DNA of 64,000 nt from an uncultured Clostridia bacterium (GTDB taxonomy: Bacteria > Bacillota > Clostridia > Oscillospirales > Ruminococcaceae): the NCBI GenBank assembly GCA_947166275.1, contig CAMVDP010000003.1, positions 1 to 64,000 of the forward strand, in the 5' to 3' direction. The number at the start of each line of letters is the position of its first letter. Position 1 is the stretch's first letter. Positions 19,238-29,116 of the stretch are shown piece after piece. The notes beneath the pieces were generated by a model. The model searched no databases and was not told the origin of the DNA. It saw nothing but the letters and a program-made list of their open reading frames with translations. Made by a program: the position numbers and the translations under genes.

Positions 19238-19981
19238 ATGGCAGACAAGAAAGATACTATCCAGGCGATACGCGAATACCGCGAGACAGGCGATATCAAC
19301 CTGAGAAATGACATAGTCATGCGATATCTTGAGCTCGTGCGTGTCATCGCACTTTCGCTCAGAAATGTCTACATAAAATACGCTTCAACAGATGATATCA
19401 TAAATGAAGGCGTCCTCGCGTTAATGTCCGCGATCGACAGCTTCGATCTCGACAGGGGAGTAAAGTTCGAGACTTACGCCAACATCAAGATCAAAGGCGC
19501 GATAGTGGATTTCGTGCGTAAGCAGGACTGGGTGCCAAGACAGGTGCGCGCTTTCGGCAGGGAGCTTGACGCGGCGTATAACGAGCTGTTCAACCGGCTC
19601 GGCCGTCACCCGAAGAACGCGGAGCTTGCCGAGTACCTCGGACTTTCGAAGGAAAAGCTCGAAAAGCAGATGGCAGAGTCCGCAAGCGCGGTAACACTGT
19701 CATTCGAGGAGCTCCTGTACGAGGATAACTTCGATGTTATGGAGAGCGGTGACCACGCGGACACGGCTCTGTATGAGAAAGAATTAAGGCAGATGATAGC
19801 CAAGGCGATAACGGAGCTCACTCCGAAGGCTCGTCAGGTCGTCACGCTTTACTACTATGAAAAGATAAAATTCGCGGAGATAGCACAGGTGCTCGGCATA
19901 ACCGAGTCAAGAGTCTGCCAGATACATTCAAAGGCGATACTCTATCTGAAACGTGCGCTTACCGAATATATGCAGAAATAG
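19238..19981 (+). CDS. fliA: Flagellar sigma factor FliA/SigD (sigma-28)
   Basis: 247 residues. Region 2 has STDDIINEGVLALMSAIDSF and KFETYANIKIKGAIVDFVRK; region 3 has LGRHPKNAELAEYLGLSKE; region 4 has LTPKARQVVTLYYYEKIKFA and GITESRVCQIHSKAILYLK, the FliA/WhiG layout. It directs late flagellar and chemotaxis genes. A matching promoter is seen at 24298-24325. AAAGGAGG precedes ATG 19238. No anti-sigma flgM was found in the window. Confidence 0.93.
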   Translation: MADKKDTIQAIREYRETGDINLRNDIVMRYLELVRVIALSLRNVYIKYASTDDIINEGVLALMSAIDSFDLDRGVKFETYANIKIKGAIVDFVRKQDWVPRQVRAFGRELDAAYNELFNRLGRHPKNAELAEYLGLSKEKLEKQMAESASAVTLSFEELLYEDNFDVMESGDHADTALYEKELRQMIAKAITELTPKARQVVTLYYYEKIKFAEIAQVLGITESRVCQIHSKAILYLKRALTEYMQK

Positions 19982-22740: not shown

Positions 22741-24183
22741 ATGGAAGAAGATCTGAAGAAGCTTGACGACCTGTTCGACAGTATCCTTGAAGAGATAATA
22801 CATCCCGAGAAGGCGGGTCTGTACAAGAACCCGTTCATCGAGCAGAAAGCCAACAGGATAGCCGAGCTTTCCGAGTCCGTCACAGTCATCATGGTGACGA
22901 TCTCGGACGACAGTATGTCCGCGTACGCAACGGTCATGGCGCGAAGCGAGAATCATAAGCTCTACAAGGCGGATGATATTCTCCGTGTAGCGTCGACAAA
23001 CGGCGTATTCTACGGGATAGATGAAACCGTTGTCCGGGATATGGCGGAGAAACAGATCATCAACACCGAGGTATTGATAGCTACCGGGACAAAGCCGGTG
23101 GACGGCACGGACGGACGGGTGTCTATGAAATTTGATATCGCCGACGGTGGGGAGATAGGCGGCATACAGGCGGGAGCCGAGATATGCCACGTTGTCAACC
23201 CGCACATGGGGCGTGATGGCAAGGATGTTCGCGGACGCGTGCTTCCCTCGGCGCAGGGAAAAGCCGTTGATATAAAGGCGGGCGAGGGCATAGTGAAGCG
23301 CGGTAACCGCTATTATTCCGAGTACTCCGGTACTCTTGTGTATCGCTACGGCGAGTACAGCGTAGTCGATGAAATGGTGCTCGATAAGAATATCGACCAG
23401 TCATCGGGTATAATAGGATACGGCGGAACCATAGTCGTAAACGGCAACGTCACCGGCAAGGCTGTTATTAAGGCAGGCAGAAGCGTTATAGTCCACGGTC
23501 TCGTGAGCAGCGCCGTGATAGAGGCGGAGCGCGATATCCGCATCGACGGAAGAGTGAACGACGCGTCAATATCCGCTTCCGACGGCTGCATATACGGCAC
23601 GGAATTCCTTGACAGCACGCTCGTTGCAGGTGAGAGTATCACGGCGAACGCATTAGACAACTGTACCGTCAAGTGCGTGACGGGCATCGAGTGTATGGGC
23701 GGCTACGGCAGGATAGTCGGCGGCGAGGTATACTGTGCAAGCAATGTGAACTGCATAACCGTAGGCAACCGAGAGCATACAGAAACGCATATCATTCTCG
23801 GTGATTGCACCGAGTTCAATATCGAGATAACGCAGCTTGAGCGCCAGATAGGACAACTCGACAGAGAGATCTCCGCGATAACCGATCAGGTGAACGAGAT
23901 CCGCGAGCGCGAAAAGGCAGGCACCGCAACGCTTGAGGATAAGAGCTTTCTCGAAGCGGCAGTGCGTATACGTTCGCAGAAAACGAGCGAGAAGGCTCCT
24001 GTCTCGGAGCGCATAAAGCGGCTCAAGGAGATAATCGAGCTTTCTGCGAAGGCAACGCTGAAGGCAAAGTCAATGATATACGGCGGAGCATTCCTGAAGA
24101 TCTGCGGGTTCTCGCAGGTGCTCAACTCCGACCGCTCTCACGCGACAGTTTACTCAAACGGAAAGAACGTCGTTGTGACATAA
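22741..24183 (+). CDS. FapA/DUF342 flagellar assembly protein
   Basis: 480 residues. The N-terminal part (1-110) is variable. The centre has YGIDETVVRDMAEKQIINTE and NPHMGRDGKDVRGRVLPSAQ, then a polymer-forming beta-helix (residues 210-345) built of repeats like GTIVVNGNVTGKAVIKAGRS and SVIVHGLVSSAVIEAERDIR. A coiled coil follows (residues 360-440). This is the DUF342/FapA plan seen near flagellar genes of many bacteria. GGGGGGAT precedes the start. It is the last gene of the operon. Confidence 0.85.
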   Translation: MEEDLKKLDDLFDSILEEIIHPEKAGLYKNPFIEQKANRIAELSESVTVIMVTISDDSMSAYATVMARSENHKLYKADDILRVASTNGVFYGIDETVVRDMAEKQIINTEVLIATGTKPVDGTDGRVSMKFDIADGGEIGGIQAGAEICHVVNPHMGRDGKDVRGRVLPSAQGKAVDIKAGEGIVKRGNRYYSEYSGTLVYRYGEYSVVDEMVLDKNIDQSSGIIGYGGTIVVNGNVTGKAVIKAGRSVIVHGLVSSAVIEAERDIRIDGRVNDASISASDGCIYGTEFLDSTLVAGESITANALDNCTVKCVTGIECMGGYGRIVGGEVYCASNVNCITVGNREHTETHIILGDCTEFNIEITQLERQIGQLDREISAITDQVNEIREREKAGTATLEDKSFLEAAVRIRSQKTSEKAPVSERIKRLKEIIELSAKATLKAKSMIYGGAFLKICGFSQVLNSDRSHATVYSNGKNVVVT

Positions 24184-24195
24184 CAACAGAAAAAG

Positions 24196-24288
24196 ACCCT
24201 CCGACGGTAAAAAGACCGTGTGAAGTGATCCGGGGCGCCGTAAAAAGACGGCGTAAGAGGAGCTTCGCCCAGGAGGGTTTTTTATTTT
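24196..24288 (+). terminator. Branched (three-way-junction) terminator of the flagellar operon
   Basis: The outer stem ACCCTCC (24196-24202)/GGAGGGT (24272-24278) is followed by TTTTTTATTTT. Inside are a hairpin ACGGT-AAAAAG-ACCGT (24204-24219) and a second arm: GAAG...TCC (222-231) pairing GGA...CTTC (259-266), capped by CGCCGT-AAAAAG-ACGGCG (236-253). The two hairpin loops are identical. GGGCG (233-237)/CGCCC (266-270) is a competing pairing. Ordinary intrinsic terminators are single hairpins. Confidence 0.75.
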
Positions 24289-24297
24289 GCCGGAAGC

Positions 24298-24325
24298 TAA
24301 AGTTTAGCTGTAACGCAGTCGATAT
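24298..24325 (+). promoter_or_regulatory. Sigma-28 (FliA) promoter
   Basis: TAAAGTTT, 12 bp, GTCGATAT. The -35 is a perfect match to the classical FliA consensus; the -10 differs little from GCCGATAT/GCCGATAA and the spacing is one base over the enteric 11. It lies 39 bases before the gene at 24365. Confidence 0.75.
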
Positions 24326-24364
24326 AATAGACAGAATACATTATCGGACAGGAGGCTGATAGTT

Positions 24365-25219
24365 ATGTTCAATGTAAACGGAGTCGGTAAGTCCGGCTAC
24401 AGCGCGTCTGTCGGCAATGTCGGCAAGAACGCGGATAAGCGTACCGAGAAGGACGAGAAGAAACAGCCGCGCAATACGGACAGAGCGGATTTTTCGTCGT
24501 TCGCGCAGAAGCTCGGTCAGACAGGCGGTCTGAAGGTCGGTGCAGCGTCAGAAAAAGCGGGCGGCTTGAGCCAGAAAGCACAGGACTACCTCGAAAAGCT
24601 GAAGAAAAAGTACGGGAATATGGACTTCATCATCGCGGATTATTCCACCGATGAAGAAGCAGACAGCCTGCTCGGGAAGGGCAAGGGCGAGTACAACGTG
24701 CTGATAACGCCGGATCTGCTTGAGAAGATGGCGGAAGATGAGGACACAGCCGCAGAGTATGAAGCGCTGATAGACAAGAGCGTCGAGAGCATCGACAGCG
24801 TTCGCGCCGGTCTCGGTGAGGACGCGGACATGGTGGACAGATACGGCGTGACAGTCGGTGCGGACGGACAGATATCCATACGAGCGCTGCTTGCCGGAGA
24901 CCTCACCAATAAGGACGGCGGTAAGTCGATAACATCTTCCACAGTTGAGGATATGCTCGCACAGCTCAAGGAAGCAAGAGAGTCACAGGCGGACAAGCTT
25001 GAAAAGATGCGCGCGGAGAAGGCTGAAAAAGAAAAGGAAGCCGAAGACGAGGCCGATGAGACGGACACAGAGGTGATCCGTATCAAGGATGAGCGCTATG
25101 AAGCCGTCAAGAGAATGAACGCGGTATTAAGCAAAGAGCAGGAGTCCGAGCTTGAACAGCTTATCAGTCAGCTTGACAGCGAGAACGAACAGCATACCCA
25201 CTTCAGCGCCAAGGCGTGA
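24365..25219 (+). CDS. Unknown protein, probably of the sigma-28 regulon
   Basis: 284 residues, no signal peptide and no membrane segment. The basic, disordered N-terminus (1-75) leads to a conserved-looking core at 80-200: LEKLKKKYGNMDFIIADYST and EYNVLITPDLLEKMAEDED, then LIDKSVESIDSVRAGLGED. A long Glu/Lys-rich coiled coil follows at 205-280. I have seen similar KYGNMDFxIADYS text in clostridial proteins of unknown function (DUF6033-like) but cannot confirm the family. The upstream sigma-28 promoter and its place directly after the flagellar operon suggest a late motility role, such as a secreted or cytoplasmic flagellar accessory. ACAGGAGG precedes the ATG. Confidence 0.7.
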   Translation: MFNVNGVGKSGYSASVGNVGKNADKRTEKDEKKQPRNTDRADFSSFAQKLGQTGGLKVGAASEKAGGLSQKAQDYLEKLKKKYGNMDFIIADYSTDEEADSLLGKGKGEYNVLITPDLLEKMAEDEDTAAEYEALIDKSVESIDSVRAGLGEDADMVDRYGVTVGADGQISIRALLAGDLTNKDGGKSITSSTVEDMLAQLKEARESQADKLEKMRAEKAEKEKEAEDEADETDTEVIRIKDERYEAVKRMNAVLSKEQESELEQLISQLDSENEQHTHFSAKA

Positions 25220-27724: not shown

Positions 27725-29116
27725 ATGTTAGTTCATAGATTTATAAAAGGCGGAGAATATCTGGTGCTCGATGTCAACAGCGGCGGAGTCCACGTTGTCG
27801 ACGAGCTCGTTTATGATATGATAGGGCTGCTTGAACCGCCGCTCACAGAGGAGATGCCGGAGCGGCTCGTGAGTGAGCTCTCACGGTTCCCGGAGAAGGA
27901 TATCCGCGAGTGCTACGATGAAGTGTATTCGCTGTACAAGGATAAGCTGCTTTTCAGCCCTGACGAGTACCGCAAGTATGCCGATGTGCTGACGCAGGCG
28001 CCGGTCAAGGCTATGTGCCTGCACGTGTCGCATGACTGTAATCTGCGCTGCAAGTACTGCTTCGCTTCGACAGGCGACTTTGGAACGGGCAGAAAGATAA
28101 TGACTCCCGAGGTCGGCAGAAAAGCGATCGATTTCCTTATCGAGAAGTCCGCGGGCAGGCAGAACCTTGAGGTGGATTTCTTCGGCGGTGAGCCTCTCAT
28201 GGCGTGGGAGACCGTCAAGGCTACGGTCGACTACGCCCGCAGTATCGAGAAGCAGCACGGCAAGAACTTCCGGTTCACAGTGACCACCAACGGTATGCTG
28301 CTCGATGACGAAAAGACAGAGTACATCAACCGCGAGATGTCGAACTGTGTATTGTCGCTCGACGGGCGCAGGGAGGTCAATGACCGCACCCGTCCCACTC
28401 CGAACGGCAAGGGCTGCTATGACATCATCGTCCCGAAGTATAAGAAGCTCGTCGAGGGCAGAGTGAACGAAGGCCGCACGGACTACTACGTGCGCGGAAC
28501 GTTCACGAAGTATAATCTTGATTTTGCGGAGGATGTGCTTCATATCGCGTCGCTGGGATTTGATCAGCTTTCCGTGGAGCCGGTGTCAGCGTCGCCCGAT
28601 GCTCCGTACGCGATCTCAGAGCAGGATTTCCCCGAGATATTTGCGCAGTATGACAAGTTGTATGATATAATGGCAGAGGGTGTCGAAAAGACCGGAAGAA
28701 AGCCGTTCAACTTTTTCCACTTCATGATAGATCTTGATCAGGGTCCATGCGCGGTCAAGAGACTTCGCGGCTGCGGCTGCGGCAACGAGTATGTGGCGGT
28801 GACACCGGACGGTGAGATATATCCATGCCATCAGTTCGTCGGCATGAAGGAATGGCTCATGGGAAGCGTGCTTACGAATGACATCGATACCGAAAAGCAG
28901 AAATACTTCGCAAAGACGCACATCTACAACAAGGAAGGCTGTGCGGACTGCTGGGCGAGGTTCTACTGTTCGGGCGGCTGCAACGCCAACGCGTACATCT
29001 ACGAGCACAGCATGGAGAAGCCGTACAAGCTCCAGTGTGAGCTCACGAAGAAGCGCGTGGAATGCGGCATAGCGCTCAGCGTTAAGATGAAAGAAGCACG
29101 TGAGCGCAATACATAA
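27725..29116 (+). CDS. scfB: SCIFF radical SAM maturase
   Basis: 463 residues. The N-terminal 85 residues resemble the RiPP recognition element (FIKGGEYLVLDVNSGGVHVV). The radical SAM cluster is CNLRCKYCF (Cys105, 109, 112), with FFGGEPLMAW and VTTNGMLLDDEK. The C-terminal SPASM region has many cysteines (CGCGNEYVAVTPDGEIYPCH, CADCWARFYCSGGCNANAY) for auxiliary Fe-S clusters. It installs thioether bridges on the SCIFF peptide encoded just upstream. The ribosome binding site is weak (GGAATTTGAG). Confidence 0.95.
   Translation: MLVHRFIKGGEYLVLDVNSGGVHVVDELVYDMIGLLEPPLTEEMPERLVSELSRFPEKDIRECYDEVYSLYKDKLLFSPDEYRKYADVLTQAPVKAMCLHVSHDCNLRCKYCFASTGDFGTGRKIMTPEVGRKAIDFLIEKSAGRQNLEVDFFGGEPLMAWETVKATVDYARSIEKQHGKNFRFTVTTNGMLLDDEKTEYINREMSNCVLSLDGRREVNDRTRPTPNGKGCYDIIVPKYKKLVEGRVNEGRTDYYVRGTFTKYNLDFAEDVLHIASLGFDQLSVEPVSASPDAPYAISEQDFPEIFAQYDKLYDIMAEGVEKTGRKPFNFFHFMIDLDQGPCAVKRLRGCGCGNEYVAVTPDGEIYPCHQFVGMKEWLMGSVLTNDIDTEKQKYFAKTHIYNKEGCADCWARFYCSGGCNANAYIYEHSMEKPYKLQCELTKKRVECGIALSVKMKEARERNT

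Follow-up and report, generated by a model that had tools for sequence, protein, structure and literature searches.

A conserved sigma-28 promoter marks a DUF6033 gene as a candidate late flagellar gene in flagellated Clostridia

The DUF6033 gene and its surroundings

The window (the whole stretch of 64,000 nucleotides that was analysed, from a gut bacterium) contains a run of genes in the order flhB, flhA, fliA, two flgF/G-type genes, cheC, cheD and fapA, which is followed by an ORF of 284 codons (Table 1). Pfam identified fapA and fliA, and the other operon genes were assigned by sequence and by the published E. siraeum order (PMC3720852), with which the flhA-fliA-flgF order agrees. A preliminary description of this DNA placed the ORF alone, just behind the operon that encodes FliA. 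This is borne out by a terminator-like hairpin that separates it from flhA-fliA-flgF/G-cheC-cheD-fapA, and the gene therefore probably needs a promoter of its own. Most near relatives have hairpin-plus-T-run elements at the matching position. An Rfam search returned no match in the region of the gene. Outside the flagellar locus, positions 27725-29116 of the window encode a radical SAM/SPASM-like protein that, judged by its sequence alone, is similar to the SCIFF peptide maturase, which is common among Clostridia.

Table 1. Coordinates in the window of the DUF6033 gene, its promoter and the upstream features discussed in the text.
Feature	Position	Strand	Evidence
fliA (sigma-28), in upstream operon	19238..19981	+	Pfam sigma-70 regions 2, 3, 4
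fapA, final gene of upstream operon	22741..24183	+	Pfam FapA E 5e-33, FapA_N E 3e-27
Terminator-like branched hairpin and T run, fapA/promoter gap	24187..24290	+	Fold -47.4 kcal/mol, z -5.6
-35 element TAAAGTTT	24298..24305	+	Pattern searches; kept in relatives
-10 element GTCGATAT (consensus GCCGATAT)	24318..24325	+	Pattern searches; kept in relatives
Ribosome-binding site AGGAGG	24350..24355	+	Sequence
DUF6033 coding sequence, 284 aa	24365..25219	+	Pfam PF19498 E 1e-34
Disordered N-terminal tail, residues 1-63 (predicted)	24365..24553	+	AlphaFold pLDDT mostly 37-56
Alpha/beta core domain, residues 64-192	24554..24940	+	AlphaFold pLDDT about 90-97 over most
Long charged helices, possible coiled coil, residues 194-272	24944..25180	+	AlphaFold model
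C-terminal motif HFSAKA (family form FDFxA/V/I)	25199..25216	+	Alignment, motif counts

The product scores 120.7 bits against PF19498 (curated cut-off 25), which makes it a member of DUF6033. The protein had been called unknown; it does belong to a named family, albeit one that has no described function in Pfam. No paper in the collection that was searched names DUF6033, and the link to sigma-28 and flagella is added here. The KYGNMDFIIADYS core noted previously lies at residues 82-94, and the long coiled coil that was also noted corresponds to a long helix in the AlphaFold model (residues 209-272), along which pLDDT drops from about 90 to about 51-70 and for which a coiled coil is possible. 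Core residues L68, S69, A72, L76, E120, M122, A123, D125 and G168 are invariant in the alignment.

Fold searches of the PDB with the full model and with the core gave no match better than E 0.5; a weak likeness to ribosome hibernation factors was discarded. A profile search of PDB sequences returned nothing, and searches of NCBIfam and PHROGs returned nothing convincing. Besides DUF6033, no Sec-type or other named domain was found with Pfam or NCBIfam. The Pfam domains of flagellin, FlgK and FliD gave no match at E up to 1, and the protein is not a member of those families.

The relatives that carry a name are MAGs from rumen and gut, labelled Ruminiclostridium sp., Lachnospiraceae, Butyrivibrio, Roseburia and Acetatifactor, the nearest being a Ruminiclostridium sp. 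MAG (L077, 75% identical). GenBank MT838472.1:4172-4510 also encodes a segment with 50% identity to the DUF6033 core; the record, 5.2 kb long, unannotated and entitled 'Bacteriophage sp.', is possibly bacterial DNA filed as phage. In another class, a distant DUF6033 match (L037:1396-2028, G081) precedes an ORF resembling a subtilisin-type protease, a context that differs from the flagellar one.

Promoter conservation and co-occurrence with flagella

The site TAAAGTTTagctgtaacgcaGTCGATAT (24298-24325, plus strand) departs from TAAAGTTT-N12-GCCGATAT by a single mismatch, in the -10 element. To call it a near-perfect sigma-28 promoter, as the preliminary description did, is fair, given that mismatch and a spacer of 12 rather than 11 bases. 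Written as TAAA-N17-TCGATAT, the site can be compared with the E. siraeum fliC (flagellin) promoter, TAAA-N17-CCGATAT, and with the Butyrivibrio reference, TAAA-N16-17-MCGATA (PMC3720852). In view of the longer spacing in these references the 12-base spacer is normal for the clade, and both N11 and N12 spacers are found in this genus. The promoter ends 40 bases before the start of the ORF at 24365, and the -35 element lies 67 bases from the ATG, against 47-290 bases (median 89) for other sigma-28-linked genes of the genus. It is the sole match in the window with up to three mismatches to the N12 pattern, against an expectation of 0.4, and the N11 pattern has no match in the window at the same tolerance; on their own these counts are weak evidence and not significant. 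A perfect TATAAT (24323-24328) overlaps the site and is seen again in relatives, inside the clade -10 (GMCGATATAAT).

Genomes were searched for the strict pattern TAAAGTTT-N11/12-GNCGATA, with the reversed pattern as a control. The 28 flagellated genomes of the genus contained 134 strict matches (4.8 per genome) versus 3 for the control (0.1 per genome). The corresponding numbers for seven nearly complete flagella-less genomes of the genus were 2 (0.3 per genome) and 4 (0.6 per genome). Six strict matches and no control match came from the genome studied here; besides the DUF6033 gene, these sites precede flagellin, a flgM-like gene, two other orphans and a stretch that has no clear ORF. Across the genus, genes of the size of FlgN and FlgK come after the flgM-like gene, and one region behind it matches the FlgK D1 domain. 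In the present genome (L157:1-600, G000:C19) the flgM-like gene lies under a sigma-28 site, is followed by a flgN-like gene and encodes 92 aa, to which no Pfam model matches at E up to 0.1. The perfect TAAAGTTT-N11-GCCGATAT site at L162:4566 (G000:C1:92565), behind which no clear ORF follows closely, may belong to a non-coding RNA or to a gene that has decayed.

A search for the same promoter before homologues had been proposed as a check. Within the genus it was found within 300 bases of 21 of the 22 DUF6033 orthologues, 12 times in strict form. The promoter also precedes a good part of the homologues in Lachnospiraceae, in some cases as TAAAGTTT-N11-GCCGAAAT, and some paralogues are without such a promoter directly upstream. 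The neighbours of the gene are mostly non-flagellar and vary across relatives while the promoter stays, so that the conserved feature is the promoter and not the locus. A Clostridia-type DUF6033 gene with its promoter was also seen in a MAG labelled Bacteroides sp. (L090, JAMPHV010000076.1), which is probably a mislabelled bin.

Among genus genomes at least 90% complete, DUF6033 scored over the cut-off in 18/18 with FliG versus 0/7 without (p 2e-6), and among Lachnospiraceae (150 genera, one genome each) in 45/82 versus 0/68 (p 7e-16); both p-values are optimistic, since the genomes are related, although sampling one genome per genus limits this in Lachnospiraceae. A sub-threshold match in G009, which contains three stops, was left out of the genus test; counting it gives 18/18 versus 1/7 (p 4e-5). 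The FliG match is weak in one of the 45 Lachnospiraceae (G398). An incomplete assembly without FliG (G007) has flhA and DUF6033 on the same contig. G017 (L024), whose assembly is 88% complete, has DUF6033 under a consensus promoter and neither FliG nor FlhA, which may reflect an assembly gap or a relic of flagellar loss. DUF6033 is absent from 37 of the 82 flagellated Lachnospiraceae and from four genomes with flagella that belong to other families of the order. As nearly half of the flagellated Lachnospiraceae do without it, it is not a core flagellar part. Copy number varies, reaching 8 matches in one genome, and the paralogues are divergent. In the groups sampled, DUF6033 occurs almost only in bacteria with flagella.

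The distance of the promoter, its conservation before orthologues and the restriction of the gene to flagellated genomes (G017 excepted) are all those of a sigma-28 regulon member. The preliminary description had named, as the pattern that would speak against its proposal of a late flagellar gene with no known role, transcription from a sigma-A site only together with promoterless homologues in non-motile species. What was found instead is a promoter before the homologues of flagellated relatives and no gene in genomes without flagellar genes, and the proposal stands. The conserved promoter, the distribution that follows flagella and the insulation of the gene together argue for late flagellar control; judged from sequence, the DUF6033 gene very probably belongs to the flagellar regulon as a free-standing late (class III) gene transcribed by FliA.

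Composition of the product and its possible fate

The DUF6033 family is strikingly poor in cysteine, with 14 in 19,441 residues (0.07%) and none at all in 63 of 75 members, against a background of 1.56% in neighbouring genes and 1.21% in K/E-rich ORFs. Exported flagellar proteins of the same clade are also low (FlgF/G 0.19%, flagellin 0.31%, FlgK 0.44%), and the cytosolic FlgN (1.26%), CheD (1.35%) and FapA (1.63%) are not. CheC is a clear exception, being cytosolic with zero cysteine, so that low cysteine is no proof of export.

Moreover, a motif such as FDFKA, FDFTI or FSAKA closes about four-fifths of the DUF6033 members. In its strict form this motif ends 14 of 63 other sigma-28-driven orphans versus 2 of 761 background ORFs, and it closes members of 9 of the 22 clusters of such orphans. 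Three loci in relatives (L199:1644-4902, G002:C82; L198:7835-12855, G011:C3; L200:6745-8650, G034:C10) have a sigma-28 site upstream of a run of small genes, four or five of them in L198 and L199, in which a DUF6033 paralogue lies beside motif-ending neighbours. The products of these runs mostly end in the motif (LDITG, IGYSA, LDFSA, LDVKG). Three more orphans of the present genome lie under sigma-28-like sites: L164:3423-3974 (G000:C4), L165:3362-4342 on the minus strand (G000:C6) and L159:1829-2569 (G000:C5). The C5 product ends GSKFNWKL and the C6 product GSYFNMLG; a homologue of the latter (L306) has a weak FliD_C match.

A working model can be drawn from these features. FliA from the upstream operon would transcribe the DUF6033 gene from its own promoter after release of FlgM, and the gene would be expressed together with flagellin and the flgM-flgN-flgK operon. 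The product, cysteine-poor and with a predicted flexible N-terminal tail, alpha/beta core, long charged helix and conserved C-terminal tag, would be among the late substrates exported by the flagellar type III apparatus. Its tag might be read by a shared chaperone or partner, and the exported protein, either associated with the filament or secreted, could then have an accessory role in motility or at the surface. Passage through the flagellar channel seems the most economical reading of cysteine poverty, sigma-28 timing and a disordered N-terminus taken together. For the chain as a whole, from transcription by FliA to the accessory role, we see an even chance.

A possible alternative, which we hold to be the less probable course of events, is that the gene is late flagellar but encodes a protein that remains cytoplasmic and serves as a chaperone, regulator or motor-linked factor, like FlgN or the chemotaxis proteins. 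Cytosolic late genes such as these are common in the sigma-28 regulon, the core forms a compact alpha/beta domain in which residues are conserved, and CheC of this clade combines a cytosolic location with a lack of cysteine. However, the cysteine content of DUF6033 lies far under that of FlgN, CheD and FapA, and type III export substrates typically have a long disordered N-terminal tail.

It is unlikely that the protein is an accessory or secreted factor that follows sigma-28 timing but plays no part in motility itself, for example a lineage-specific, fast-evolving family used at the surface or in host interaction. The variable copy number, the divergence of the paralogues and their presence in sigma-28-headed runs of small proteins with the same ending would fit such a factor, but every one of the 18 sampled genomes of the genus that are flagellated and nearly complete has the gene, which suggests that its use is tied to the flagellum. 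Finally, an accidental promoter match with sigma-A expression, using the overlapping TATAAT as its -10, is highly improbable: although that hexamer is perfect and chance would supply 0.4 sites with up to three mismatches per window, no TTGACA-like -35 lies at the right distance from it, the sigma-28 site is kept before nearly all orthologues and the strict motif falls to background in flagella-less genomes.

Returning to export by the flagellar apparatus, a broader and tentative extension, which we regard as rather doubtful, is that in flagellated Oscillospirales and Lachnospirales sigma-28 also drives varied, unrelated, small cysteine-poor orphans, DUF6033 among them. These would share a C-terminal tag (hydrophobic, D/N, hydrophobic, any, small hydrophobic end) read by a common flagellar chaperone or export component, and would form a flagellar secretome with its own address label. 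If true, this set of orphan, probably exported late-flagellar proteins could bear on the assembly of commensal flagella or on host interaction, and would be testable in culturable Lachnospiraceae. In any case, the analysis provides a functional context for a Pfam family so far without one, and it defines from sequence a sigma-28 regulon for flagellated Clostridia of gut and rumen, a group in which motility has received little study.

Comparison with known systems

Unlike flagellin, FlgK and FliD, DUF6033 lacks the domains of these proteins and is not universal in flagellated bacteria. It resembles the late export substrates (flagellin, FlgK, FlgL, FliD and FlgM) in having few or no cysteines, although cytosolic CheC has none either, and a long N-terminus predicted to be disordered; its gene shares a promoter class with flagellin and flgM. 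Among other sigma-28-driven proteins of the genus, YjfB was matched over the cut-off, and FlxA and FliD_C just under it; YjfB is absent from the genome studied here. DUF6033 differs from FlxA and YjfB in that it has no sequence match to either family. However, its gene is like E. coli flxA (PF14282) and YjfB (PF14070), the latter a putative motility protein, in being free-standing, with a sigma-28 promoter and no known role. YjfB- and FlxA-like genes are also under the same promoter in this genus, and LDIKV, the same kind of motif as that of DUF6033, closes the product of a YjfB-family gene that lies under a sigma-28 site.
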